Positions 1,546 to 31,254 of a stretch of DNA of 64,000 nt are shown piece by piece. Below the pieces are notes generated by a model, which saw nothing but the letters and a program-made list of their open reading frames with translations, had not been told where the DNA came from and made no database searches. How positions within the stretch are numbered: the stretch's first letter is position 1; each line of letters opens with the position of its first letter. Location of the stretch: positions 1,054,001 to 1,118,000 of the forward strand of contig NZ_CP110136.1 of the NCBI RefSeq assembly GCF_025979705.1. Direction: 5' to 3'. This DNA is from Hymenobacter sp. YIM 151858-1 (GTDB lineage: Bacteria; Bacteroidota; Bacteroidia; Cytophagales; Hymenobacteraceae). A program made the translations under genes and the position numbers.

Positions 1546-2535
1546 TTATTTCGGGCTTTCTGCGCCAATTTCCTCCAGCACCTTCTCCACCCAGCTTTTG
1601 CCCCAGTCCTCAAACTCGTGCTCCGACCACAGCTGGGGGTAAAAAATGCGCTTCTGAAACTTGGGCGGCAGGTACTTGCGCCAGTTGGTGCCGCCCGTGG
1701 CGGGCACCGCGTCGCCGGCTTGCCGCTCCAAGTAGCGCACCGCCGATTTGTAGTGCATCAGCGGCCAGTTGATGTTCACGTTCACGTCGAGCTGCTTGAG
1801 CTGGCGCACCAGGCGCGGGTGGCGGCGGTCTTCTTCGGGCAGGCGCTGCACCACGGCCCACACGTTTCGCTCGCGGAAGCGCTGGGCGTGGGCCGAAAGC
1901 TGCTCGTGGTATTTCTGCTCGAACTGCACGAGCGTGAGCGTTTTGGCGCCGCCTTCTTCGAGCGTGGCGCCCGCCTTCCAGTAAATGCAGCCCATCAGCT
2001 CGTCGTGGGCGGCGGCTTCGCCCAGCAGGCGGCGCTTTTCCTTATCGAGCAGGTTGTTGAGGGCCGTGGAGGCAATTTCAATGTAGCGGTACTGCACCGA
2101 TTGAAAGCCCGAAGCCGGCATCAGCGACATGCGGAACTGCAGGAACTGCTGGCGGTCCATGCCGTCTACCATCACATCAAACGAGTTGATGAGGTTTTCG
2201 AAGTAACGGTTGATGCGGCCCAGGCGCAGCACCAGCTCACCTAGGGTGGGCTGCTGCAGGTCGCCGATTTGCTCGTACTCGCACAGGCAAAGCTTAAAGT
2301 AGAGCTCCGTAATCTGGTGGTAGATAATGAAGATCTGCTCGTCGGGGAAGTTGGTGAGCGGCCGCTGCAGCGAGAGCAGCGTGTCGAGCTCGATGTAGTC
2401 CCAGTAATTGACGTAGTCGGCGTGGTACAAACCCTCGAGGTACGCTGCCAGATCCTGGTTATCGGCGGCGTACTTTTCCTGTAGGCGCCGCAGTTGGGTG
2501 AGTACCGCGGGCGAAAATTCTTCTTCTAAGGGCAT
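1546..2535 (-). CDS. Tryptophan 2,3-dioxygenase family protein
   Basis: About 329 aa from the ATG at 2535 (MPLEEEFSPAVLTQL); an in-frame ATG at 2586 adds 17 proline-rich residues and is less likely. The family signature FIIYHQITELYFKL is present, whose His ligates haem in tryptophan 2,3-dioxygenases, together with the preceding YVNYWDYIELDTLLSLQ and the helical SFDVMVDGMDRQQFLQFR. The enzyme family opens the indole ring of L-tryptophan to N-formylkynurenine in the cytoplasm. The Bacteroidota branch is longer and diverged from classical KynA, so exact substrate use is inferred. Host gene, single-gene unit ending in the 1499-1537 terminator. Confidence 0.85.
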   Translation of the reverse strand: MPLEEEFSPAVLTQLRRLQEKYAADNQDLAAYLEGLYHADYVNYWDYIELDTLLSLQRPLTNFPDEQIFIIYHQITELYFKLCLCEYEQIGDLQQPTLGELVLRLGRINRYFENLINSFDVMVDGMDRQQFLQFRMSLMPASGFQSVQYRYIEIASTALNNLLDKEKRRLLGEAAAHDELMGCIYWKAGATLEEGGAKTLTLVQFEQKYHEQLSAHAQRFRERNVWAVVQRLPEEDRRHPRLVRQLKQLDVNVNINWPLMHYKSAVRYLERQAGDAVPATGGTNWRKYLPPKFQKRIFYPQLWSEHEFEDWGKSWVEKVLEEIGAESPK

Positions 2536-2697
2536 GAAAGCGGGGTGGCGGGGTAAGGAGGTGGGGAAGAGTGGGTGGGTTCGCAAAGAACGAAAAACCC
2601 TACAAATTGGCCACGCCCAAGCAACGTTTGGGTGGGTTGCGGCATCGGATAGTTGCGGCCCCGCAGGCGGCTGCGCCCTAGGTGCTTTGGGCCGGGT

Positions 2698-3784: not shown

Positions 3785-3813
3785 ATTGGTGGAGAGTGGT
3801 AAGCGGGGGTTAG

Positions 3814-4038
3814 TTACAGAATAGAAACCTGATTGGAGTGGTGAGGCCGGATTACCATAGTAGAGTCGTCGCCCGCCTTGGTAATAATAAGCTCGCCATC
3901 GAGGCCAATCTGAATACGGTAAGTAAGCTCGCCATCCGCGCGCTCAATGTGCAACGTGCTAGGCATGTGGTGAACTTGGCGCTTAGGGTGCGCGCGGCTT
4001 CCGGTGGCAATGGTAAAATCGTTGTGCGAGTACTGCAT
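3814..4038 (-). CDS. Small early phage protein, unknown
   Basis: 74 aa, last gene of the leftward early operon. It has a beta-rich middle (HIERADGELTYRIQIGLDGEL) and no recognised motif. An internal ATG gives a 50-aa form starting MPSTLHIERAD. A partial copy of the start-associated repeat (GGTTATCGCTCGG, about 4054-4066) lies upstream but overlaps the end of the preceding gene. Function unknown. Confidence 0.5.
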   Translation of the reverse strand: MQYSHNDFTIATGSRAHPKRQVHHMPSTLHIERADGELTYRIQIGLDGELIITKAGDDSTMVIRPHHSNQVSIL

Positions 4039-4056
4039 AGCGGGTTTAGTAAGCGG

Positions 4057-4344
4057 TTATCGCTCGGTAAGTTTTTGCAGGATGATGTCGAACGGGCTTG
4101 GTTGCGTCGCCTTCCAGGCTTGGTAGCCGTCGGCGGTATTCCACGTCCATTGCTTGCCGTCGTAGTAATGGCAAACCGTTTTGCGCTGCGTGGCCTCGGC
4201 TAAGCCGGCTGGATCAACATGGGCTTGCGTGTTCATGTACTCGCACAATTGCTCATCGCTCATGGCGCGCACCTTGGAAAAGCGGGGCACGGTGATTGGC
4301 CCGATGGGGCTGGGTACAGTGCCCCAATCGTTGTCTTGGTTCAT
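4057..4344 (-). CDS. Small early phage protein, unknown
   Basis: 95 aa, hydrophilic, with a Trp-rich C-terminal half (KQWTWNTADGYQAWKATQ). No family recognised. It is 18 bp from the next gene and 12 bp from the previous one, consistent with one operon. It lacks the start-associated repeat. Confidence 0.55.
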   Translation of the reverse strand: MNQDNDWGTVPSPIGPITVPRFSKVRAMSDEQLCEYMNTQAHVDPAGLAEATQRKTVCHYYDGKQWTWNTADGYQAWKATQPSPFDIILQKLTER

Positions 4345-4356
4345 GGTCGAGCGGGG

Positions 4357-4788
4357 TTAGTATGCGTTTTGAATGCGGTTGGCAGCGGTCAGTAGCTCGT
4401 TGCGGAATAGTCCGCAATTGCACTTTTTACGAGCTAGCACAATTTTACGTAGTTCTCCAAATGGGTAAGCCTGCTGCCGGTCGAGCCGGTTAAACTCGTA
4501 AAAGCGGCTTACCTGCTGCGGGTTTAGTCCGAAGGATACGAGCAGGGCCGGCGTTACCTGCGTAGCGTCGATCTGCGCCTGTTTCTGCTGATGCTCGGCA
4601 ATGGCCTGGCGCACGAGCTGCGCGGCGTGCTGGTGCGTGGCGGCCGTGGCTTGCTGGCCTCGGTAGCGCACGGCAAACAGCGGGGCCTCACCGGGTTTGG
4701 TCAGGCGGGCAACGTGGGCCTTGCCGATGGTGTGCAGGGGGAATACGCGCCAACCTTGGTGGCGGTAAGCGGTGAAGGGAGTAGGCAT
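4357..4788 (-). CDS. Early phage protein, unknown
   Basis: 143 aa. The central helix (HAAQLVRQAIAEHQQKQAQI) is likely coiled, and the C-terminus is basic with a CNCG pair near KKCNCGLFRNELL. The start at 4788 is supported by a start-associated repeat copy at 4794-4816. Unknown function. Confidence 0.6.
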   Translation of the reverse strand: MPTPFTAYRHQGWRVFPLHTIGKAHVARLTKPGEAPLFAVRYRGQQATAATHQHAAQLVRQAIAEHQQKQAQIDATQVTPALLVSFGLNPQQVSRFYEFNRLDRQQAYPFGELRKIVLARKKCNCGLFRNELLTAANRIQNAY

Positions 4789-4836
4789 AAGCGGGTGCGC
4801 GTAACGTGGCGCGGCGAAATTCGGGGGTTAGTAGGG

Positions 4837-5088
4837 TTAAAGGGTTTTGAAAGTACCGTCAGCGGTTTCGCGGTAATGTACGAGCACGCGGCGCCGCTCC
4901 CAATTGTCTACGCGCAAGATGTGGCGGTAATTGGTTTTAATCACATTGCCCCGGTAGGTGCATTTGCGCACTACTATAAGTTTGCGGCCGGCTATTTCAA
5001 CGTAATGCTCTTGCCCGATAGTATCGCCTACTACATTGGCAATGCTTTCGTACGTGGCGTTGGTGGGGTCTAGGGTAATAACGTGCAT
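4837..5088 (-). CDS. Small early phage protein, unknown
   Basis: 83 aa, beta-rich and basic (YVEIAGRKLIVVRKCTYRG, then NWERRRVLVHYRETADGTF), compatible with a small barrel or nucleic-acid-binding fold, but no family is recognised. The start at 5088 is preceded by the best copy of the start-associated repeat (5094-5116). Confidence 0.6.
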   Translation of the reverse strand: MHVITLDPTNATYESIANVVGDTIGQEHYVEIAGRKLIVVRKCTYRGNVIKTNYRHILRVDNWERRRVLVHYRETADGTFKTL

Positions 5089-5142
5089 CAGGTGGTGCCG
5101 GTAACGCTCGGCGGCGAAAAGTGAAAATCGGTTGAAACGGGC

Positions 5143-5379
5143 CTAGTTGGTCGATTTACTTCGGAGTTGCCGAAGAACTTCGTCGTGTTGCTCGGGCGTG
5201 ACGAAATCAGCATCAGTGCCTAGGCAGCGATAATAAGAACGCGTAACGGTGTATTCCTGCCCTTTGTAGGCCAGTACAACCTTCTCGCTTTTTAGTTGCG
5301 CTTTGCAGTCAGCGAACGGGCTGTTAATAAAGCTCGCTGCGTTTGTTGGCGTAGAGGGCTGGGCCTTTTCGGTATTCAT
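5143..5379 (-). CDS. Small early phage protein, faint YgiT-like C-terminus
   Basis: 78 aa. The C-terminal half (VLAYKGQEYTVTRSYYRC, then DFVTPEQHDEVLRQLRSK) weakly recalls the N-terminal region of YgiT/MqsA-type proteins but lacks their CxxC zinc pairs, so no function is claimed. Its start at 5379 lies inside the end of the upstream gene (56-bp overlap), which is unusual in this operon. A later start cannot be excluded. Confidence 0.45.
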   Translation of the reverse strand: MNTEKAQPSTPTNAASFINSPFADCKAQLKSEKVVLAYKGQEYTVTRSYYRCLGTDADFVTPEQHDEVLRQLRSKSTN

Positions 5380-5647
5380 TCGGGTATTTAAGCTGATAAA
5401 ACAAGTTAACTGCTATCCGCCAAGTGGTATACATGCGCGAGCCTAAACCGCCTACAATGTGCGTAAACGGTTTATTCGTCCCGTGTGCCAACATAGCACG
5501 TTTCAAGCTTTCGAGTGTCAGCACTTCGGCGGTTCTTACGCCTTCGCGCGTCGTATAAACAACCCAGTCTTTACGGCCGTAACGGGCTTTCTTTTCGGCT
5601 TCCTGGCCGGCCATCGGGCCGGTTAGTTTGGTTACTGCTTTGCTCAT
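5324..5647 (-). CDS. Early phage protein, unknown
   Basis: 107 aa from the ATG at 5647 (MSKAVTKLTGPMAGQEAEKK); longer in-frame starts run through the repeat sequence upstream. A start-associated repeat at 5653-5675 fixes the start. Contains GRKDWVVYTTREGVRTAEVL and a Gly-rich loop. No recognised family. Confidence 0.6.
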   Translation of the reverse strand: MSKAVTKLTGPMAGQEAEKKARYGRKDWVVYTTREGVRTAEVLTLESLKRAMLAHGTNKPFTHIVGGLGSRMYTTWRIAVNLFYQLKYPNEYRKGPALYANKRSELY

Positions 5648-5702
5648 GGCATGGTGCCCGTAACGCAGGGCGGCGAAAAGGTTGGAAACTGGTAAAACGG
5701 GT

Positions 5703-5822
5703 CTAGTTGCCGCGAATCTTGCGGACGGTTTGGGCAATGCGTTCGAGGCGGCGCTGGTGCTCGGCGCGTACGGTGGCAAGGCAGCGCACGGGCAACGGCG
5801 GGGCGTGAATGGGTGCTTTCAT
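5703..5822 (-). CDS. 39-aa basic peptide
   Basis: MKAPIHAPPLPVRCLATVRA followed by a basic helix rich in Arg. The frame fills the gap between the neighbouring genes, and its stop codon lies in a block (about 5680-5707) that closely resembles the sequence at 5117-5147 around the stop of another gene, supporting a real gene boundary. Function unknown. Confidence 0.45.
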   Translation of the reverse strand: MKAPIHAPPLPVRCLATVRAEHQRRLERIAQTVRKIRGN

Positions 5823-5925
5823 AGCAGTATGCGTGTTTGGTACTCGGGAGCGTGGGGTACAACGCAGCCGGTTAAGGCTGCCGCACTGTGCCTAATGTCT
5901 GTTTAGGCTCGCACAGTCGAGCGGG

Positions 5926-6120
5926 TCAACCGTTAAAATTCCACTTTTTAAATCCTGGCTTTTTAACCTTTGTGGGTTCTCCTTCGCCCCATATCTCGAA
6001 GTTGTAGTGTCCCGCGTTGCGGGTAATGCTGTTAGCTTCGTTTTTGTCGTGTGCATAGGCGGTGCCGATGGCAGCGAACTTGCCCATAATAACAAATGCT
6101 AGGAGCGGAGTATTTTTCAT
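5926..6120 (-). CDS. Small exported phage protein
   Basis: 64 aa from the ATG at 6120; the longer frame to 6156 translates the repeat. It begins MKNTPLLAFVIMGKFAAIGT followed by AYAH, a signal peptide with a likely cleavage after AYA, leaving about 40 residues. A start-associated repeat copy lies at 6128-6150. A small periplasmic or surface role, such as superinfection exclusion, is possible but is only inferred from export. Confidence 0.6.
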   Translation of the reverse strand: MKNTPLLAFVIMGKFAAIGTAYAHDKNEANSITRNAGHYNFEIWGEGEPTKVKKPGFKKWNFNG

Positions 6121-6197
6121 AAACAGCGGTGCTCGGTAACGCTGAGCGGCGTGCAATTTGGTTTGTGATTATTCAGGGATGCGGGAATAGTTGGGGC

Positions 6198-6386
6198 TTA
6201 ATCCAGCCAAGCTCCGCACGTAGTTATGTATAGGTGTTGCGCGTCCTCGTTTAGCCAGTTGCCTAGGCTGTCGAGCACTCCGGCTTGCTTGAGGTCGGCC
6301 AGTACTTGCCGGCGTTGGGGCTCGTCGCGGTTGGTGGCGTTGAGGCGGGCAAGGGTGCGTACTTTGTCGGCGTGTGGGGCTTGCAT
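6198..6386 (-). CDS. Small early phage protein, unknown
   Basis: 62 aa from the ATG at 6386 (MQAPHADKVRTLARLNATNR), 13 bp after the stop of the upstream gene; the ATG at 6419 would overlap it. Mostly helical, ending TTCGAWLD. No family recognised. Confidence 0.5.
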   Translation of the reverse strand: MQAPHADKVRTLARLNATNRDEPQRRQVLADLKQAGVLDSLGNWLNEDAQHLYITTCGAWLD

Positions 6387-6399
6387 GGTGCTGCGTTGG

Positions 6400-6696
6400 T
6401 TAGGCGGTGTAACAATCACAGAACAAGTCAGCGTCGCCGCTCAGGTGCTCAAGTATGCCGTAAGCCGCGCGGAAAGCGTCGCCGTACCAATAGCCTTGCG
6501 CGCTAAGACCTAAGAACGCGAGGAGCTTGCGGGCCAACTTGCGGCCGTTGCGGTCGGTTTCCAGTACGCTGGCTAGGGCCAACGTGCATTGATTGGCGGT
6601 GATGTTGCCGTATTGCTCGGTGCTGAGCTGTTTTTGTAGCCAGTTGGCAAACTCAGCTGCGTCTAATTTCAGGGCGGCGTAAATCGGGGCTTTCAT
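6400..6696 (-). CDS. Early phage protein, unknown
   Basis: 98 aa, helical (FANWLQKQLSTEQYGNITAN, then LARKLLAFLGLSAQGYWYG), ending DLFCDCYTA. A degenerate start-associated repeat lies at 6704-6725. No family recognised. Confidence 0.55.
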   Translation of the reverse strand: MKAPIYAALKLDAAEFANWLQKQLSTEQYGNITANQCTLALASVLETDRNGRKLARKLLAFLGLSAQGYWYGDAFRAAYGILEHLSGDADLFCDCYTA

Positions 6697-6740
6697 GGTT
6701 GGCGGTGCGGCTATCCGGCCGCGCGGGGTTTAGTGGGGTG

Positions 6741-7166
6741 TTAGCCTCTGGGGTGGTATGATCCGGTTTCATGGCAGCCGCAACAAGTGCGCCGCGCTAA
6801 GCAGTGCAATGCTTGGGCGTAGTCGGGTGGTAGTTCGCTGCCCGTTACTTTGTTAGCAATGCCTGCGGATTCTATGACGATTTCTAATTGTCTGCGGGCA
6901 ACCTCGGCCTTATTGCATCGGCTGCGACCCGTGCGGCGGGCGTCCTCGTTCAACGATTCAATAAATTCCAGTACTTGTTCCTTTGTTTGGATAGAGGCCA
7001 ATGCGGAGCGCAGAAAATGCCCGGAATTAAATCTGTTTATGCTGTTCGGTATTAGGTAGCCGTACTGCTCCCAAACAGCCTGTATTTCTTGTTTGCTGCT
7101 TTTGGGGTGCGTGGCGTTCTGTATTTCCTCTTGGAATTTGAACGGCGGGCGGGGTGCGTGTCTCAT
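6741..7166 (-). CDS. Early phage protein with C-terminal Cys cluster
   Basis: 141 aa, largely helical. The C-terminus carries CLARRTCCGCHETGSYH, four Cys and a His within 16 residues, suggesting a metal site. A start-associated repeat at 7172-7194 supports the ATG at 7166. Unknown function. Confidence 0.6.
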   Translation of the reverse strand: MRHAPRPPFKFQEEIQNATHPKSSKQEIQAVWEQYGYLIPNSINRFNSGHFLRSALASIQTKEQVLEFIESLNEDARRTGRSRCNKAEVARRQLEIVIESAGIANKVTGSELPPDYAQALHCLARRTCCGCHETGSYHPRG

Positions 7167-7290
7167 ATCCTGGTGCCGTGTGACGCTCGGCGGCGTGGGT
7201 TGGGGTTGGTTCCTTGCTCTGCGTTTATCGAGGCTTGCAACTCGCTCTAATGAGGCCGCATTAAGGGCCGGCGCTGGGCCGGCTGTCGTG
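7167..7290 (-). repeat. Duplicated intergenic block, copy 1 (hairpin plus start repeat)
   Basis: Read leftward it holds, in order, a start-associated repeat, a GCAGAGCAAGGAACC box and, next to the following gene's stop, a GC hairpin built from two GCCGGC arms. The same order and related sequences recur at 8158-8273. No protein-coding gene is evident. The hairpin may limit transcription or protect a 3' end. Confidence 0.5.
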
Positions 7291-7563
7291 TTAATGTTTT
7301 GCTTGTTTGCGTCGGTTGTACTCGGCCATGTATGCCTCTTGGCGAGATATGCGGGCGTTATATTCCTCGTCTGTTTCTAGGCGCGTCGCATATACTTCTA
7401 TGCGGTATCCGCTTGTATCTTCCGATACACTGAACGGGTTAGCTCCTACAATCGGCTCAAGTTCCTTAAGGGTTAGGCGGGTGCTATCAGTGTATTCGGT
7501 AAACGTCGCCGGAATTACTTCCTTGCTGCGGTTGATCTTGATTGGGTAGGCAAAAGCTGGCAT
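7291..7563 (-). CDS. Early phage protein, unknown
   Basis: 90 aa, 12 bp downstream of the ArdA gene and probably translated with it. It starts MPAFAYPIKINRSKEVIPAT and ends in a charged helix (LETDEEYNARISRQEAYMAE). No family recognised. An ardA-linked anti-defence role is a positional guess only. Confidence 0.55.
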   Translation of the reverse strand: MPAFAYPIKINRSKEVIPATFTEYTDSTRLTLKELEPIVGANPFSVSEDTSGYRIEVYATRLETDEEYNARISRQEAYMAEYNRRKQAKH

Positions 7564-7575
7564 GTTGCGGAGTGG

Positions 7576-8157
7576 TTAACGGTTGCGGAAAACGTGATTG
7601 TTTTCGCTTATCCAGTAGTCACCGATAAAAATATCCCGTGCAAAAGCCTTGGTATCGAAATAGAAGGCGTTTATACCTGCCTTCTTCATAGCGTCAAAGT
7701 ATCCAAGCTCCTCGGCTATGTGGTCGGCGAAAGCTTCTTCGCTGTCGTGCTGGCCTTGGTAGTCCTCGCGGAACTCCTCAACCAGTTCGGCGGCTTCGCT
7801 TAGGTCGCGGCCGAGGTTATCGCAGTAGTCTTGGAATGCCTCTTGCTCGTCTTCGCTCAGCTCGTTCATGGCTTCGGCGTAGTTGTAATACGCTTCAAAA
7901 TCCATGCTTTCCGAGTATAGCGAGCGGGGGAACCCTTCAAAGTCGTGGGCTGCCCATTCCTCGCGGGGCTGGCCGCAATTCTCGGCGGTGCCGTGCTCCT
8001 CGTCGTACTTCTTGAGCATGTCGGCAATTGCTTCGAGCATTTCGTCGGCGCTGCTGTAGTCGTCGAGGTCGAACCATTCACCGAGTAAGGAGCCGGCGTT
8101 GTAGTCAGATAGCGAGGCGATGTAAACGCGTGGGGCGGTCGTGGTGTTGTTTTTCAT
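7576..8157 (-). CDS. ardA: Antirestriction protein ArdA
   Basis: 193 aa from the ATG at 8157 (MKNNTTTAPRVYIASLSDYN). The ArdA opening PRVYIASLSDYNAGSLLGEW, the acidic helices, WAAHDFEGFPRSLYSES, and the C-terminal FDTKAFARDIFIGDYW match the family along its whole length. ArdA is an acidic DNA mimic that occupies the DNA site of type I restriction-modification enzymes and protects incoming DNA. The protein is strongly acidic, as expected. Its position in the early operon fits a role right after entry. A start-associated repeat lies at 8163-8186. Confidence 0.95.
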   Translation of the reverse strand: MKNNTTTAPRVYIASLSDYNAGSLLGEWFDLDDYSSADEMLEAIADMLKKYDEEHGTAENCGQPREEWAAHDFEGFPRSLYSESMDFEAYYNYAEAMNELSEDEQEAFQDYCDNLGRDLSEAAELVEEFREDYQGQHDSEEAFADHIAEELGYFDAMKKAGINAFYFDTKAFARDIFIGDYWISENNHVFRNR

Positions 8158-8273
8158 GGGTTGGTGCCGTTTAATGCCTGGCGGGCTTTGTGGTTGGGTT
8201 CCTGTTTCTGCTTTTGCTTCATCAGCTACGGCGCACACCGTAGGACAGGGCCGGACGGGGCCGGTTGTCGTGG
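8158..8273 (-). repeat. Duplicated intergenic block, copy 2
   Basis: Counterpart of 7167-7290. Next to the upstream gene's stop lies an ACGACAACCGGCCCCGTCC hairpin (about 8248-8271), then a GCAGAAACAGGAACCC box, then the start-associated repeat in front of ardA. In the other copy the hairpin is ACGACAGCCGGCCC. No protein-coding gene is evident. Confidence 0.5.
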
Positions 8274-8588
8274 TTAATATTCCCAAATGGCGCGGGCGGT
8301 AACTACCAGCACATTAACACGGGCTTCCTGCAACTGCTCTAGGTTGTTCTTGCTCGCGGCGGTGTTGCTGAAATTGTGGCCGGTTGCGCGGTCTACTAGC
8401 GTGCAACTAACAGCGGGCCAACTGGCAAAGGCGTTAAGATTGTTGTAATACCTGCCCTCCTGGCGCACGTCGTACCCTAGGGCGCTGACGTGCTGCTTAA
8501 ACTGCTGCGGGGTCATTACCTGACCGCCTGCGGCTACGTGTTGGCTTATGCGGTGCTGTACTTCGGCGGTGTATTTCGTGGCTTTCAT
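8274..8588 (-). CDS. Early phage protein, unknown
   Basis: 104 aa, starts MKATKYTAEVQHRISQHVAA, alpha/beta in character, no recognised motif. The start at 8588 is preceded by a start-associated repeat copy at 8594-8616. Confidence 0.6.
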   Translation of the reverse strand: MKATKYTAEVQHRISQHVAAGGQVMTPQQFKQHVSALGYDVRQEGRYYNNLNAFASWPAVSCTLVDRATGHNFSNTAASKNNLEQLQEARVNVLVVTARAIWEY

Positions 8589-8639
8589 GGTTGGGTCGCG
8601 GTAACGCTGCGGGCGTGGGTGTGAGGGGTGTGTTGGTTC

Positions 8640-8855
8640 TTACTGCTGGCTGATAACATCAGCCGCCGTAATAGGCTCGTATACATCCTGATTACCGCGC
8701 AGAATACGACCGTACAACTGGCCTGCTAGTGTCATGGTCGCGGTTAAGATGTGCGGCCGGTTGTACTGCTCGGCGTTAAACCGAATCACAACGGGCGAAA
8801 TGCGGCCCGTTTCGAGAGCTTTGTTTATGGCTTCGGCGGTGTTGTTGATAAACAT
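8640..8855 (-). CDS. Early phage protein, first gene after the early promoter
   Basis: 71 aa (MFINNTAEAINKALETGRIS). First gene behind the leftward promoter at 8917-8946, with a ~55-nt CA-rich leader and a start-associated repeat at 8860-8883. Function unknown. Confidence 0.6.
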   Translation of the reverse strand: MFINNTAEAINKALETGRISPVVIRFNAEQYNRPHILTATMTLAGQLYGRILRGNQDVYEPITAADVISQQ

Positions 8856-8916
8856 ATATGGTTGCCTGTGACGCTGGCGGCGTTGGGTTGTTGTGTGTGT
8901 CTGTGTTGTTGTACGT

Positions 8917-8946
8917 CAAAGGTAATACACTGTTTCATTATTGCAA
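8917..8946 (-). promoter_or_regulatory. Main leftward early promoter
   Basis: Read leftward: TTG (8944-8946), 19 bp, then TACCTTTG (8924-8917), a perfect Bacteroidota -7 element. It should drive the operon from 8855 down to 3814. Confidence 0.75.
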
Positions 8947-8948
8947 CA

Positions 8949-8980
8949 ACATTGTGAAAAATAATTTCATACAACAATGT
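8949..8980. promoter_or_regulatory. Candidate operator dyad upstream of the early promoter
   Basis: ACATTGT (8949-8955) and ACAATGT (8974-8980) are 7-bp inverted arms 18 bp apart in an AT-rich stretch, with inner GAAA/TTTC matches. It abuts the -33 box of the early promoter and the 3' end of a winged-helix gene, so it may be that protein's binding site. Confidence 0.4.
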
Positions 8981-8989
8981 AATTGCTTG

Positions 8990-9427
8990 TTACACAGGCG
9001 TATTATTTTCTGCATTTGCTGTACTCGCTTGTTTCTTTACGTACGCGCGCGGGTATTTCTTCAGCTCGGCGCCGGTTATGCGTTCCTTCTGGCTGCGTAG
9101 TTCCCTGGCTAGTCGGCCGCATACCAGTGCGCCGGCAGAAGTCGGGCGGTAACTCGTGCGGGTGCTGAGCCGTGCACCTCGGGCGCGTTCAAGCCAGTTC
9201 CGTTGGATCAGGTTGCTCAGCAGGTGGTGCGTATAACTGTAGTCAATGCCTAGGAATGTTGCCACATCCTTAGCCCGTACCAACTTGCCCATGCTGCCCC
9301 ATGCCGATACGAGCTGCAAGGCTTGTAAATGACGCGTGCTGCATTGTTCTCGCTCGGCTGTGCGTTCGTAGGCTGCAAGCCATGCGGGGCCGTGTACATC
9401 GTGTTTGTTCTGTGGAGTGGATGCCAT
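8990..9427 (-). CDS. Winged-helix (MarR-like) DNA-binding protein
   Basis: 145 aa from the ATG at 9427 (MASTPQNKHDVHG); a start at 9475 is possible. Residues ~45-110 carry a winged helix: LVRAKDVATFLGIDYSYTHH followed by LLSNLIQRNWLERARG and a wing with TSYRPTSAGALVCGRL, the MarR-like helix-turn-helix then beta-wing order. It lies directly upstream of the leftward early promoter and its candidate operator, so it may regulate early transcription. The upstream ACACCTTGTACAC could be its promoter. Confidence 0.65.
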   Translation of the reverse strand: MASTPQNKHDVHGPAWLAAYERTAEREQCSTRHLQALQLVSAWGSMGKLVRAKDVATFLGIDYSYTHHLLSNLIQRNWLERARGARLSTRTSYRPTSAGALVCGRLARELRSQKERITGAELKKYPRAYVKKQASTANAENNTPV

Positions 9428-10081
9428 GTGTACAAGGTGTGGAAAGAATGGGAGTTGTTTAGTAGTCCGTCCCACCTACACACACCACGTCGCCCACAAT
9501 CCCCATACTCCACGTCCGCCAAACAAGGCAGGGGAGGGGCGAAGGGCGCATGTTCCCGTGGCCGGCGCATTGCCTTGCTGTATGGGGTTTCGGATTATAT
9601 ACCAACCACTACTTAACATAATGAATATTATACATGACAATATCCTATTTTGTACCAGCCTTCCGCATGGGAACGGGTTCCGGTTTGTACTGGCAAAAAC
9701 GGGCCTGGTGGTCGCGCAGAGGGTACCCGGTGCTGTGGTTTTGAAGTTGGGAACGGCCCCGGCGCGGGGAAAACTGCCGCTTGGTCTTTCATCTCACCTA
9801 CACCGAGCCTTCAATCTAACTTACTCAGAGTACTTCGCCAATGCCTGCTGGCGGCACGACGATAGGAGTGTGGATGTAGGCGCTGGATGCAATGGCCTTA
9901 TTGCACTCCCGTAGGTGGGATAGTATTATATACACCGCTCAGGGGAAGCCTTATATACAGGCACTTGCGGGTAGAGCATATGTATCTGCTCGCCACCGTA
10001 TAAGTATGCATTGTAAACCATGGGTGAAATATTTTCTCGATAATGCTTGCATTAATGGAATAATGTTGCAACCTTTGGAAC
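9428..10081. other. 654-bp gene-free region, candidate origin
   Basis: No convincing gene lies between the divergent genes at 9427 and 10082. AT-rich islands at 9586-9650 and 9918-10081 sit in otherwise GC-rich DNA. TTATATAC occurs three times (9595-9602, 9926-9933, 9951-9958). Two small hairpins lie nearby (GCCT-N7-AGGC around 9949; GAGCA-N8-TGCTC around 9973). It lies immediately upstream of a RepL-like initiator gene, the usual place for a plasmid-type origin. A GC-rich centre (9660-9800) has further short hairpins such as CCCCGGCGCGGGG. Confidence 0.4.
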
Positions 10082-16303: not shown

Positions 16304-18385
16304 GTGCAGCGCAGCCTCGAATTTGAGAAGCTAAAGGACGGCCGCCTCAAGGTTTGCATTGCCGACCTCGATTGCTTTACCCCGCCCGTACCCAAAGACA
16401 AGAGCGGCTTTCTCAACGGGCACGTCAAAAGCCGCAAAGACCAACGCTGGGAGCGCGACTTTCCCACCGACGAGGAACTTGACCTGCTCTCGGAAAAGGA
16501 ATACCTCGACTTACAGGCCCGCGAAGCCGACCGCATCTTCAACGGCTGCTGGTTTCTCAACGACGGCGAGCCCACCTACCTCACGGGGGTTCACTACACC
16601 TTCCTGACCCACTTTCAGCTCCCCTCGGGCGAGTACGCCGACTTCCGCGAGGCTGACCAAAAGGACTTCCTGCACGACGAGGCCGCGTTCAACGACCCGC
16701 AGTGCATCGGCAAAATCTTCCTCGGCGCCCGCCAGCGCGGCAAAACCGCCCGCCGCGCCTGCCGCCTGTTCTGGCGCGCCATCACCGACATGGGTATTCG
16801 CTTGGGTATTCAGTCGAAAAACGACGAATCCGCCCAGGACGTACTCAATAAGTTCGTCTCGCACGCGCTGCGCAACCTCTCGCGTCTGATTCGCCCCGTT
16901 ACCGACCTGGCAACGGACAACGCGCAGAAAAAGATCAACTTCAAAGCTCCGGCGCGGCGCGGCAAGACGGCCTTAAACTCGCCCAAGGTCATTGCCCTGA
17001 ACACCACCATCGAGCGCCGCAACTCCAAGCCGCAGGCGTTCGACGGCGACACGCTCGCCGAGTGGCTGGGCGACGAGTGGGCCAAGAAACAGGACTACGA
17101 CTCCGAGGAACGCTTCAACGTAGTGTCGCGCATGATGCGACGCGGCGGCAAGGCCATCGGCTTCTGCTGGCTGCCCTCCACCATCGACGAGAAGGAGGAC
17201 TTCGAGCCCGACATGCCGTTGCGCATGTGGAAGGACGCCGACCCGACCAAGCGCAAAACCACGGGCAGCACCGAGAACGGACTGGTGCGCTTATTCGTGC
17301 CCGCCTACGAAGGCCACATCATCGACGCCTACGGCCGCTCGCTGATTCGGGAGTCGATTGCCGACCTCGAAGCCAACTGCCCCTCCGACCCGGTGCAGGC
17401 GCAACGCTACTGGCGCGCCAACCCCCGCGACGTAAACGACGCCTTCGCCACGGCCGGCCGCGACTCCATCTTCAACGTCGATGTGCTGCGCGCCGTGGAA
17501 AAGAAAATCAACCACGAGCTTGACCCGCACATCGTCCAGCAGGTTGATCTGGTCTGGACGGATCACACCCGCACCGCCGTCAAGACGAGCCCCAACAAGG
17601 AGAACGGCCGCTTTAAGCTGGTGATGCGCGCCCTGCCGCCCGAGCAAAACAACGTCGTGCAGGCGGGCTACATGCAAAACGAGCAGGGGCAGACCGTGCC
17701 CACGTTCAAGCCGCTCAACGACCACCGCTACGCCGTGGGCTGCGACCCCTACGACGCACGTACCGTCGCCAAGCTCTCCACCGCTTCCAAGGGCGCGGCC
17801 TACGTGCTCTGGAAGCCCGACATGCTCCACGAGCAGGAGCGACTCGGGGCCGACGGGGTGGAGCGCGGCGGCTACTGGCCCTCCGACTCGTTTATCGTCG
17901 AGTACATCAACCGCCCGCCGCGCCCGCAGGACTTCTACGAGGACATGGTAAAGCTCTGCCACTTCTTCGGCTGCTCTTTGCTGCCCGAGCGCCAGAAGCC
18001 CGGCATCATCCACTACTTCGAGAACCGGGGCTACAAAGCCTTTATCGGCGGGCAGGTGGCCCTTACCGACACCGACCGCAAGAAGCTGGCGAAGAAAAAG
18101 GACGCCGACAACTACGGCCACGCCGCCTCCACGGAAGCGACCGTGCAGTGGTCGGAGCTGATGGCGATTTACTCGCACGGCCCTTTGGCCGACGACTGGC
18201 GCCGGATGCCCTTCGCCGCGCAGGTCAAGGACTGGCTCTCGCTCGACGTGCTCGACACGCAGAAGTACGACGCGGCCGTGGCCTCGGGCTGGACGCTCAT
18301 GCAGGCCCGGCGCTTCGTGCGCCGCAGCGGGCGCCCGCTACCCCCCGCCGACGTGTTCAACCTGCGCAATTTCTTCAACGTCTGA
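16304..18385 (+). CDS. Terminase large subunit
   Basis: 693 aa with a GTG start abutting the previous stop. ATPase motor: Walker A GARQRGKTAR at 141-150 and Walker B ending in DE at 257-258 (LAEWLGDEWAK). The C-terminal RNase H-like nuclease begins at YAVGCDPYD (~477-484, first acidic residue D481). It pumps DNA into the prohead and cuts it at headful or specific sites. Longer than the usual 450-600 aa, with an N-terminal extension of ~120 residues as in other Bacteroidota podoviruses. Confidence 0.9.
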   Translation: MQRSLEFEKLKDGRLKVCIADLDCFTPPVPKDKSGFLNGHVKSRKDQRWERDFPTDEELDLLSEKEYLDLQAREADRIFNGCWFLNDGEPTYLTGVHYTFLTHFQLPSGEYADFREADQKDFLHDEAAFNDPQCIGKIFLGARQRGKTARRACRLFWRAITDMGIRLGIQSKNDESAQDVLNKFVSHALRNLSRLIRPVTDLATDNAQKKINFKAPARRGKTALNSPKVIALNTTIERRNSKPQAFDGDTLAEWLGDEWAKKQDYDSEERFNVVSRMMRRGGKAIGFCWLPSTIDEKEDFEPDMPLRMWKDADPTKRKTTGSTENGLVRLFVPAYEGHIIDAYGRSLIRESIADLEANCPSDPVQAQRYWRANPRDVNDAFATAGRDSIFNVDVLRAVEKKINHELDPHIVQQVDLVWTDHTRTAVKTSPNKENGRFKLVMRALPPEQNNVVQAGYMQNEQGQTVPTFKPLNDHRYAVGCDPYDARTVAKLSTASKGAAYVLWKPDMLHEQERLGADGVERGGYWPSDSFIVEYINRPPRPQDFYEDMVKLCHFFGCSLLPERQKPGIIHYFENRGYKAFIGGQVALTDTDRKKLAKKKDADNYGHAASTEATVQWSELMAIYSHGPLADDWRRMPFAAQVKDWLSLDVLDTQKYDAAVASGWTLMQARRFVRRSGRPLPPADVFNLRNFFNV

Positions 18386-18403: not shown

Positions 18404-20845
18404 ATGCAACAGCTATCCTCGCCCTTAACGGCCCCGTGGCCGTATCCAGAGACGTTTGACACGCGCGATCCCAGGAAAAAGAACGCCGCGTGGATTTTGC
18501 AGTGGGGGCGGGGCTTTTACTCGCAGTACCGCACCGGCACCAGCAAGGACTTCTACCACGGCCACACCTCCGGCCGCTACGAACTCGCCCGCCAGTACGC
18601 GCTCGGCCTGCACCAACCCGTGCAAGCCCTCAAGGACGTGGAAGGCAACCCCGACGCCGACCGCAACAAGAAGCTCGACTTCCGCCCCCTGCCGATTCTT
18701 GACCGTTACCTGCGCGCCACCGAGGGCGTGCTCAAAGACCACGAGTTCGACGCCTCCGTGAGCTGCGTGGACGAGCAGGCCGCCGCCGACAAGCAACGCT
18801 ACGCCGCCGAGGTGCAAGCCTCGTGGGCCGCGCAGCAGATGGGGGCCGCCGACCTCGACCCCATGCAGGGCCAGCCCGACGTGCCGCAAGACCCGGCCGA
18901 ACTCGAACTCGCCCAGCAGCGCCGCAAAACCGAGGAGGAAGCAGCCCTGGAGCGCAAGTTGCAGTACGCCCTGTTCCTGGCGAACTACGACCAGCAGAAC
19001 CGCGAGTGCCAGCGCAACGAAATGCTCTACGGCGTATCGGTGATTTACCAGCGTCCGTGGGGCACCCGCCGCCTGCCCGCCGCGCTCTACCCCGGCGACT
19101 GCTTTTTCCTGCCCTCCTTAACCGAGGACTTCGCGGGCTTGCAGGCCGGGGCCCACCTCGAACGCATCACCCTCGCCCAGCTCAAGGCCGAGGTTGCCGC
19201 CGACCCCCACGCCAAGTTTACCGACGCGGACTGGGAGCACCTGCGCAGCATCGCCAAAACCTCCATGCAGAACGGCGGGCGCGAGTTGCGCTACGATTCC
19301 ACGCTCGGCAAGGAACCCGAACTCGCCGGCCAGATCGAGGTAATCCGCTTCTCCTTCTTCTCCACCGACGAGTACGTGCAGGCCACCGCCGAGGGCAAGC
19401 CGTGGCGCGAGAAGCAGGCCGGGTACGACAACCCCCGCAACTACTACAGCCAAGTCGAAAAAGCGCAGATGCAGTCGGTGTACGAAGGCACGCTCATTGC
19501 CAGCAACCTCGAACTCGGCTACGGGGCCCGCCGCGCCCACTCCCAACTGCGCGACGAAAGCAACCCCCTGAACTGCCACCCCTTCTACGTCGTGTCGGCC
19601 CCCGGCCGCCTGCACGGGCAGTCGCGCTCGATGGTCGAGCTGTGCTTCTCGCCCTACGACACCTACCAGCGCGAGTGGCTGAGCCTGCAAAACTCGCTGG
19701 CGACGGCCGTGCCGTGGTGGCTGGAATTTAACGTCGGTGCCATCCGCGAGAAGGTCATGGAAGGCGACAAGAGCAAGCCGGACGGCGGCGTGGCCGACGC
19801 GATTCGCGGCCTGCTCAAGAACCGTTGGATGCCCGCCAACAACACCGACGAGGAAGGCAACGAAATCAACCGCGCCGCCATTACTTCCGGCTTCACCCAA
19901 GGCTGGGAGCAGGAAGTCAACCTGCGCTGGTCGAACATGGAGCGCGCCCGCTTGGAAATCGAAGCCATCAGCGGCATCAACGGGGCCATCGCCGCCGCCA
20001 ACCCCACCGCCGACGTGGGCAAGGGCGTAACCGAGCAGGCCGTCTCGGGCGCGCAGAACGCGCTCGAACTCTACTACCACAGCAAGCGCCGCCGCTTTAA
20101 CCAAGTGGTGCAGGCGCTGGGCTCCACGATCAAGTACAACGAAGCCGACGCCCCGCTGACCGGCTCGTTCTCGCTGCCGGTGGGCGGCATGGGCAAAACG
20201 CAAGCCGTGAGCGTGGCCGCCGCCCCGGAGATTGCGGGCCGTAAGTTCCAGTACATGATCGAGCGCCGCCCCACCCAACAGGAGTGGCAGCGCGTGTACG
20301 CCGCCGCCGACAACGCCGTGGCCTCGGGCAACCTCCTGATGGACGACTACGTGCAGCTTACGTTCGTTCCAAACCTCAAGGACGCGGCACTGCACCTGAC
20401 CACGGGCATCCGCAAAAAGCAGCGCATGGATCAGGAAAACAGCCTGATGCAGCAGCAGCAGACCGGCCAGGTTCAGATGCAGAGCGCGCAGGCCGCCGAG
20501 GAGGAAAAACGCAAGACCGCGCAGATGGAGCACGAGCTGCGGATGCAGTTGGAGCAGCACATCACCGAGCGCGCCGTGCTCGTGGCCCGCATCCAGCAGG
20601 AAACGGCCGTGCAGAACACCGGCACGCAAACCGACGGCAAGCTCTCCGCGACGCAGCTCTTGGCCGAGGCGCAGGTAACGGTGGCCGAAATCAAGAGCGG
20701 CACCGACGCCGAGCAGGCCGAGCGGGAGCGGATGCAGGCGGATCAGCACCACCTCGAAGGCATTGACCGCGACCTCGTGTTGCAGCAGCGACAGGCGGAG
20801 GCGCAAAAGCAAGCCGCCAAAGCCCGGCCGCAAGCGGGCAAGTAG
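18404..20845 (+). CDS. Portal protein
   Basis: 813 aa directly downstream of terL. Features of large podovirus portals: LQNSLATAVPWWLEFNVGAI, SGINGAIAAANPTADVGKGV, then GAQNALELYYHSKRRRFNQV in the stem/wing region, and a long C-terminal Gln/Glu-rich coiled coil (~655-813) that could form the barrel seen in P22-like portals. Forms the dodecameric DNA channel at one capsid vertex. Terminated by a strong hairpin at 20863-20903. Confidence 0.85.
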   Translation: MQQLSSPLTAPWPYPETFDTRDPRKKNAAWILQWGRGFYSQYRTGTSKDFYHGHTSGRYELARQYALGLHQPVQALKDVEGNPDADRNKKLDFRPLPILDRYLRATEGVLKDHEFDASVSCVDEQAAADKQRYAAEVQASWAAQQMGAADLDPMQGQPDVPQDPAELELAQQRRKTEEEAALERKLQYALFLANYDQQNRECQRNEMLYGVSVIYQRPWGTRRLPAALYPGDCFFLPSLTEDFAGLQAGAHLERITLAQLKAEVAADPHAKFTDADWEHLRSIAKTSMQNGGRELRYDSTLGKEPELAGQIEVIRFSFFSTDEYVQATAEGKPWREKQAGYDNPRNYYSQVEKAQMQSVYEGTLIASNLELGYGARRAHSQLRDESNPLNCHPFYVVSAPGRLHGQSRSMVELCFSPYDTYQREWLSLQNSLATAVPWWLEFNVGAIREKVMEGDKSKPDGGVADAIRGLLKNRWMPANNTDEEGNEINRAAITSGFTQGWEQEVNLRWSNMERARLEIEAISGINGAIAAANPTADVGKGVTEQAVSGAQNALELYYHSKRRRFNQVVQALGSTIKYNEADAPLTGSFSLPVGGMGKTQAVSVAAAPEIAGRKFQYMIERRPTQQEWQRVYAAADNAVASGNLLMDDYVQLTFVPNLKDAALHLTTGIRKKQRMDQENSLMQQQQTGQVQMQSAQAAEEEKRKTAQMEHELRMQLEQHITERAVLVARIQQETAVQNTGTQTDGKLSATQLLAEAQVTVAEIKSGTDAEQAERERMQADQHHLEGIDRDLVLQQRQAEAQKQAAKARPQAGK

Positions 20846-20945: not shown

Positions 20946-21794
20946 ATGGAACAACCGACCACCCATATCGTGTGCTTTAGCGGCGGGCATTCCTCCGGCA
21001 TCGTGGCGATTGAAGTAGTGCGCCGTTACGGCAAGGAGAACGTCTTGCTGCTCAACCACAACATCAACCGCAACTACGAAGACGCGGACATCAAGCGGTT
21101 CAAGCAGCAGGTGGCAGATTACCTCGGCCTACCCATTACCTACGCCAACATCGACGGCATCGAGGACGATGCGTTGATTCCTGATCAGTTCGATATAAGC
21201 CTGCGCAAAAAGGGGTTTAAAGCCCCGGGGACTGGGGACGCGTTCTGCACCTACGAATTAAAGACCAAGCCCTTTATGCAGTTCCTAGAGCTGAACTTCC
21301 CCGACAAGAACGTGGTGATTTACTACGGCTTTGATGACGACGAGCAGCACCGCATTGCCCGCCGCGAAATGATCCTCGGCAATAAGGGGTACAAAACTGA
21401 CTTTCCGATTGCCCGCTGGCCCTCCACGATTGAGGAAACGAGCGAAATTGGCATTCCGCGCCCCATGACATACGCCACGTACAAGCACGGCAACTGCGCT
21501 GGCTGCGAGAAGGGTGGCATTCAGCACTGGTATGTCACTTACTGCCACCGCTACGATGTGTTTACCAAAGCCAAAAACACCGAAGCCTCGCTTGGCTACA
21601 CCATTCTGAAAGACCAGCGCGGCGGCGTAACCAAGCCCTTGCCCCTTACCGACCTAGAGCCCGTGTTTGCGCGCATGAAGTGCGCGGGGGTGCCCAATAC
21701 CGAGCATTACGACGAGGGTAAATTTAAGAAGTACCTCAAGCAGTATCGCTTACCCGAACTCAGCCTGTTTGCTCCTTGCGAGTGCAGCTTCTAA
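20946..21794 (+). CDS. PP-loop ATPase / PAPS-reductase-like enzyme
   Basis: 282 aa. CFSGGHSSGIVAIEVVRRYG is the PP-loop (SGGxxS), which binds the ATP or adenylyl phosphate. LLNHNINRNYEDADIKRFKQ and the Cys cluster GNCAGCEKGG fit the phosphoadenosine phosphosulfate reductase superfamily, and C277/C279 lie near the C-terminus. Family members reduce PAPS or, in phages and Dnd systems, sulphurate other substrates; the substrate here is unknown. It has its own promoter and terminator-bounded upstream edge, inserted between portal and scaffold genes. Confidence 0.8.
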   Translation: MEQPTTHIVCFSGGHSSGIVAIEVVRRYGKENVLLLNHNINRNYEDADIKRFKQQVADYLGLPITYANIDGIEDDALIPDQFDISLRKKGFKAPGTGDAFCTYELKTKPFMQFLELNFPDKNVVIYYGFDDDEQHRIARREMILGNKGYKTDFPIARWPSTIEETSEIGIPRPMTYATYKHGNCAGCEKGGIQHWYVTYCHRYDVFTKAKNTEASLGYTILKDQRGGVTKPLPLTDLEPVFARMKCAGVPNTEHYDEGKFKKYLKQYRLPELSLFAPCECSF

Positions 21795-30975: not shown

Positions 30976-31254
30976 CTAGTACTTGCTGGCGGCTATCATT
31001 GCGAATCCCAGCGCCAAGGTTCTGTCGTCAGGACGCGGGAACGCGTGGCCGTACTTGTTTTTGATGCGGTTGGCTACGCCGGGTTTCTTACGGGCGAGAC
31101 ACTTCACATAAACGCGAAACGCCTTCCGGCCTTTGTTCTGCTGGTCGAGCTTGTCGCCAAAGGCAAGCATACCATCAATCAGCGACTGGTCAAAGTACGG
31201 GCGGGCGCTGCCGTTGATGAACTCATCAAGGTGCTTTCTCAGTTGGTCTTTCAT
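30976..31254 (-). CDS. Phage accessory protein, unknown
   Basis: 92 aa, basic and helical (MKDQLRKHLDEFINGSARPY, then KCLARKKPGVANRIKNKYGH). ATGA overlap with the gene upstream. No family recognised. Confidence 0.6.
   Translation of the reverse strand: MKDQLRKHLDEFINGSARPYFDQSLIDGMLAFGDKLDQQNKGRKAFRVYVKCLARKKPGVANRIKNKYGHAFPRPDDRTLALGFAMIAASKY

Follow-up and report, generated by a model that had tools for sequence, protein, structure and literature searches.

The window analysed here is a 64,000-nt (nucleotide) stretch of the 4.6-Mb genome of Hymenobacter sp. YIM 151858-1 (contig NZ_CP110136.1, positions 1,054,001 to 1,118,000; G000:C1:1054001-1118000), and inside it lies a prophage whose early genes form a leftward operon running from about 8.95 kb down to below 4 kb. 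The operon consists of small genes, mostly of unknown function, together with an ardA-like gene. An earlier note on this DNA reported a short repeat just upstream of nine of its gene starts, and all nine coordinates hold, with every copy on the sense (minus) strand and at a nearly fixed place close to the ATG. Our analysis shows it to be an RNA hairpin, specific to one strand, whose loop and flanks are conserved and whose stem covaries between copies. The nine hairpin leaders are as follows (loop in brackets between the two arms of the stem):

8860..8882, minus strand: class I, CGCC-GCC(AGCGTCACA)GGC-AACC, before gene 8640-8855
8594..8615, minus strand: class I, CGCC-CGC(AGCGTTACC)GCG-ACC, before gene 8274-8588
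8163..8186, minus strand: class I, degenerate, GCC(AGGCATTAAAC)GGC-ACC, before the ardA-like gene 7576-8157
7172..7195, minus strand: class I, GCCG(AGCGTCACA)CGGC-ACC, before gene 6741-7166
6704..6728, minus strand: class II, CGC-GCGGC(CGGATA)GCCGC-ACC, before gene 6400-6696
6128..6151, minus strand: class I, GCTC(AGCGTTACC)GAGC-ACC, before gene 5926-6120
5653..5675, minus strand: class I, GCCC(TGCGTTAC)GGGC-ACC, before gene 5324-5647
5094..5116, minus strand: class I, GCCG(AGCGTTAC)CGGC-ACC, before gene 4837-5088
4794..4816, minus strand: class I, GCGC(CACGTTAC)GCGC-ACC, before gene 4357-4788

The general layout is a 5' CGCC followed by a stem of 3-5 bp (base pairs), a constant loop of 8-9 nt (AGCGUYAC), the 3' arm, ACC, 4-7 nt and the AUG. 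Spacing from ACC to the start codon is 5 nt in 6/9 leaders; across the copies the hairpin lies at about -9 to -27, with its 3' end 8-11 nt upstream of the start codon. The poorest class I copy, at 8163, has a 3-bp stem and an 11-nt loop, and three distal copies (family D1) share extended similarity. A covariance model built from eight copies recovered those same eight as its best window matches (21.5-36.4 bits), scores that are high by construction; the informative result is that no further window match exceeds 14.1 bits, the score of the next one. Rfam 15 had no match over any of the hairpins at E<=5.

The letters of the stem vary between copies with both arms changing together, and the loop GCGTYAC is kept in most copies. 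The GCCG-N8-CGGC dyad previously described for this repeat is real as a dyad, though its letters are not fixed. When ten copies are aligned, each of the 4 pairs varies in both arms and pairing holds in 97% of cells, compared with 71% in shuffles, and sliding the arms as a control gave 16-40% pairing. Since this alignment was fitted by hand, an arm-permutation test on 11 leaders is the cleaner evidence; the test set includes a suggestive copy from genome G031 (see below), the 5' arm was held fixed with 0-2 nt of freedom on the 3' side, and loop cores were placed by hand. None of 200,000 permutations of the 3' arms attained the summed stem length that was observed, and for the number of stems with 3 bp or more the test returned p=5e-6. 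This covariation provides new RNA evidence that fits the earlier note's proposal of an RNA-level target for coordinated translational control, and the idea of a simple DNA repeat is not supported, the copies being RNA hairpins. An alternative stem, in which ACGC pairs with the loop GCGU, fits most window copies and gives copies 8594 and 8860 their minimum-energy fold, but fails in copy 4794 and by inspection reaches only ~2 bp in the copies of a related prophage in genome G058, so it was rejected as the main structure. A two-state switch between the two stems may nevertheless operate.

Copy 6704, formerly described as weak, does have a low score with the class I model (11.0 bits), because it is a different hairpin. 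This second class reads GCGGC(CGGATA)GCCGC-ACC-N7-ATG in the window and has a counterpart in the leader of gene 7713 of G058, GCTGC(CGGAT)GCAGC-ACC-N7-ATG. A pattern spanning both copies occurs exactly twice in 205 family genomes, in both cases at these leaders, a result that speaks to specificity rather than discovery since these same copies served to define the pattern. Applied to the viral contig collection, it gave 11 matches, none with a suitably spaced start after it. If the hairpins are operators, as proposed below, the presence of two loop classes would imply either two factors or two specificities.

Hairpins are found at starts with room upstream. Of the ten starts that either open the operon or follow a gap of 44 nt or more, 9/10 have a hairpin, compared with 0/5 for genes that overlap their neighbour or follow it within 18 nt (Fisher p=0.002), an association to which space alone could contribute, as short gaps leave less non-coding room. 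The operon genes lacking such a hairpin start at 7563, 6386, 5822, 5379, 4344 and 4038; among them, the short gene starting at 5822, downstream of a pistol ribozyme match, is the sole gapped start. The operon of G058 has four gapped genes without a hairpin, so the gap rule is not general.

Promoters in Bacteroidota follow the consensus TTG-N19-TAnnTTTG, and a full match lies at the head of the operon:

8917..8949, minus strand: Bacteroidota-type promoter TTG-N19-TAnnTTTG, the sole full match below position 10000 on this strand

The match would place the operon start ~55-60 nt upstream of the ATG of the first hairpin gene. No full match of this type stands in front of individual operon genes, and since the single one is at the operon head, the hairpin copies are unlikely to be individual promoters.

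The structural genes of the prophage, on the opposite strand, allow its relatives to be traced:

16304-18385, plus strand: terminase
18404-20845, plus strand: portal

Compared with a phage collection, the window terminase matched chiefly Flavobacterium and Cellulophaga phages, the best at <30% identity. By terminase identity, the nearest relatives found are two prophages, in genomes G048 (63%; the same match as a Hymenobacter glacieicola record) and G058 (36%), and the metagenomic viral contig G517 (54%), which was picked up by alignment of the large terminase subunit (TerL). Single-protein TerL scans yielded few relatives. The structural genes also include one that resembles phosphoadenosine phosphosulfate reductase (20946-21794, plus strand), and a tryptophan 2,3-dioxygenase-like open reading frame with a TTG start (1546-2586, minus strand) is probably host DNA bordering the left end of the prophage.

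In G058, three hairpins lie in the leftward operon, two of class I and one of class II, in front of genes with no detectable similarity to the hairpin genes of the window. Because hairpins precede unrelated genes in different phages, the element is modular, and it belongs to a small group of Hymenobacter-family phages. A blind hairpin screen of G517 found a class I-like hairpin, GCCC(ACGTTAC)GGGC, six nt upstream of a start. In G031 (G031:C7:193411-193443; L213, L243), the leader of a hicB antitoxin gene fits class I, GCCGC(AGCGTTAA)GCGGC-AACC-N4-ATG; the gene sits in an unrelated phage-like region, and as hicB relatives lack such a leader, this copy is suggestive only.

A loop-restricted screen of 800 kb of host strand found 18 hairpins, 3 of them followed by an ATG after 4-12 nt, and in phage sequences the cases with a start 4-12 nt after the hairpin lay in early operons or in the G031 hicB leader. 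Once the related phages are set apart, no R2 match read from genomes of the family lay 4-8 nt before an ATG, and the same held for the best matches elsewhere in the genome and genus, so that the start association proposed in the earlier note withstood the scan by which it could have failed. In the whole genome and eight congeners, other covariance-model matches were weak, and those read were not placed before starts. Model R3 was applied to 391 genomes of the order; most of its matches did not precede real starts and were set aside, with the G031 hicB leader as the one exception taken up. The class I pattern matched mostly unrelated viral contigs among the matches listed, none of them with two copies, and the leaders read from ArdA relatives in the family contained no copy.

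According to published work on Bacteroidia, initiation depends on A residues upstream of the start and on a low degree of structure, and the anti-Shine-Dalgarno sequence is sequestered (PMC9976891). Our 400-kb host sample, in which genes were called with a simple purpose-written caller, showed no Shine-Dalgarno (SD) signal; its leaders are G-poor, and 12/260 (4.6%) contain a hairpin at this place, compared with 8.2% after shuffling. Among the nine hairpin leaders, an AGGAGG-like SD stretch at the usual distance is absent in 8/9, and the ninth (gene 6741-7166) has AGGA directly before the ATG. Pairing of the element itself to 16S rRNA was considered and rejected as unconvincing: 16S contains the complement of the loop, GTAACGC, at a single place near position 103, and duplexes of the element with the 16S 3' tail use the helix 45 region, with energies computed without a shuffled control. 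The earlier statement that the repeat does not resemble an anti-16S sequence is borne out.

The gaps of the operon also contain two matches to self-cleaving ribozymes and a hammerhead-like sequence, two of the three lying shortly before a hairpin:

5858..5922, minus strand: pistol ribozyme (Rfam RF02679), 56.7 bits, above the gathering score, full model (positions 1-68), activity predicted only
7211..7267, minus strand: type-P1 twister match, 49.6 bits, below the gathering score of 67.2, E ~1e-9, 15 nt upstream of the hairpin that precedes gene 6741-7166
8211..8268, minus strand: hammerhead-like candidate, Rfam score 16.1 against a gathering score of 37, just before the hairpin of the ardA-like gene

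The ardA-like gene is flanked by the hammerhead-like sequence and the twister-P1 match. By eye, the hammerhead-like candidate has the core CUGAUGA/GAAA/GUC, and its stem II opens with an A-A mismatch. A second leader motif, CYAACCCCG(YTTTACC) with near variants, often lies at a stop codon and ahead of the hairpin. Its sense:antisense counts are 12:0, 11:0, 5:0 and 14:0 in the early regions of four phages (window 3800-9500, minus strand, and the early regions of G048, L036; G058, L038; and G517, L373), exceeding every first-order Markov sample in 3/4 phages (not in G058), though these counts overstate enrichment because the motif was chosen by eye from these same leaders. In host DNA it occurs at ~0.25 per kb per strand and is rare in leaders.

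Since host leaders avoid structure and show no SD signal, a hairpin at nearly all independent starts should bear on initiation, and the constancy of its loop suggests that something reads it. We favor a reading in which the hairpins are multi-gene translational operators recognised by a trans-acting factor, probably a phage protein, a proposal that we hold to be about evenly poised. The small hairpin would occupy the space where the 30S subunit settles, in a host without SD use and with structure-poor leaders. Recognition would be by way of the constant loop and the CGCC/ACC flanks, and the trans-acting factor would most likely be an RNA-binding protein of the phage; as it held the hairpin or let it go, it would set initiation at all independent starts together, and closely packed downstream genes would follow by coupling. 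We infer that a reader exists, and likewise its nature and the sign of its effect, for which we lean modestly towards repression by the factor-bound hairpin. A broader version would describe a translational regulon of two specificities, with one of two interchangeable hairpins at each independent entry site of a ribozyme-processed polycistronic early message; here the hairpins would replace the SD sequence as the control point, would be read by one or two phage factors, and loop type would assign genes to timing groups. We regard this fuller scheme as unlikely.

Several observations weigh against the operator reading. At about -4 to -7 kcal/mol, the short stems are weak and no more stable than shuffled sequence, and the minimum-energy fold of copies 8594 and 8860 is a different stem. 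Folding the leaders, as the earlier note had proposed, gave ordinary energies, so it is the covariation, the conserved loop and the position that carry the argument for the hairpin. In G048, which is the closest cultured relative, no hairpin was found; its homologue of gene 4837-5088, with 55% identity starting at the first residue, has a CA-rich, unstructured leader. Apart from one candidate each in G517 and G031, the element was found in only two prophages, and when selected window proteins were scanned against Pfam and PHROGs, no recognisable RNA-binding regulator emerged. As a separate observation, a small protein encoded at 30976-31254 (minus strand) has a match in G058 and none in the compared stretches of G048, and could be a candidate reader.

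The main rival is a cis-acting ribosome-entry element, in which the hairpin would raise initiation without a trans factor by docking on the 30S platform at the place of the SD helix or by positioning the start codon. The 3' arm falls at about -9 to -12, the place that an SD helix would take, spacing to the start is nearly fixed, hairpins occur in the window only at starts needing their own ribosome entry, and the anti-SD is sequestered in Bacteroidia (PMC9976891). However, host leaders avoid hairpins at this very place, the related phage G048 manages without one, complementarity to 16S is unconvincing, and conservation of the loop sequence suggests specific recognition; we judge a purely cis-acting role to be somewhat unlikely. 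Loop conservation over 8-9 nt beside a variable stem would also suit a small RNA making a kissing-loop contact with the GCGUYAC loop. Yet the ten GTRACGCT matches found when the window (not host small RNAs) was searched comprise five that are the elements' own antisense and five outside the operon, and two loop classes would need two small RNAs, which makes such a target very improbable.

Action at the DNA level, as an operator, promoter or recombination seam before small gene cassettes, would account for modular placement in front of unrelated genes and for the extended similarity of the three distal copies, and the extended elements of cluster K mycobacteriophages were interpreted as likely DNA sites (PMC3203893). 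A DNA-binding protein of fixed specificity would not, however, yield stems that covary between sites of one genome, and every copy lies on one strand at a near-constant distance from the ATG, with no full promoter match before individual genes, so that we consider a DNA site improbable. The recombination seams raised in the earlier note are neither shown nor needed; what is seen is modular placement before unrelated genes. We give least credence to an mRNA processing signal, a nuclease site that together with the ribozymes would cut the operon message into gene units. The pistol and twister-P1 matches and the hammerhead-like sequence in gaps of the same operon favor it, but hairpin position is fixed to the start codon and not to the gap, and G058 has hairpins with no ribozyme match in its early region (L038).

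Phage translational operators, such as the MS2-type coat operator and the gp43 and gp32 operators of T4/RB69, share their class of mechanism with the operator reading. Like them, the Hymenobacter element is a small hairpin at the ribosome binding site, with a conserved loop and a variable stem, and it overlaps the initiation region. Those operators mostly control one gene, whereas here nine genes of one operon carry the element, in a host without SD use and with a putative reader only.

The cluster K mycobacteriophages, cited as a precedent in the earlier note, carry a start-associated sequence (SAS) with a 13-bp asymmetric consensus, GGGATAGGAGCCC, and an extended form (ESAS) that is a 17-bp imperfect inverted repeat (Pope et al. 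2011, PMC3203893). The precedent applies to position: in both systems a short repeat of unexplained function lies just upstream of many non-structural gene starts, before varied gene families, and is nearly absent from the host genome. It does not extend to consensus or structure. The window shows no enrichment of the SAS consensus (at 2 mismatches it has 3 matches, compared with 1.4 expected, and 0 in the operon), and whereas the cluster K authors found little support for mRNA hairpins, as left and right changes do not fit pairing (PMC3203893), the arm changes in the Hymenobacter prophage hairpins do fit pairing. A further parallel comes from an Agrobacterium prophage, where three hammerheads around ardA in phage operon gaps were suggested to divide one long transcript into units of single genes (Perreault et al. 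2011, PMC3088659). Both operons place self-cleaving ribozymes (here sequence matches) in gaps around ardA; the Agrobacterium operon has three hammerheads, in contrast to the pistol, twister-P1 and hammerhead-like sequences that accompany start hairpins here. Translation control by phages of SD-free Bacteroidota is poorly known, and these hairpins make the question directly testable. They represent an RNA-supported counterpart to the unexplained mycobacteriophage start-associated sequences, in the same operon as self-cleaving ribozyme matches.

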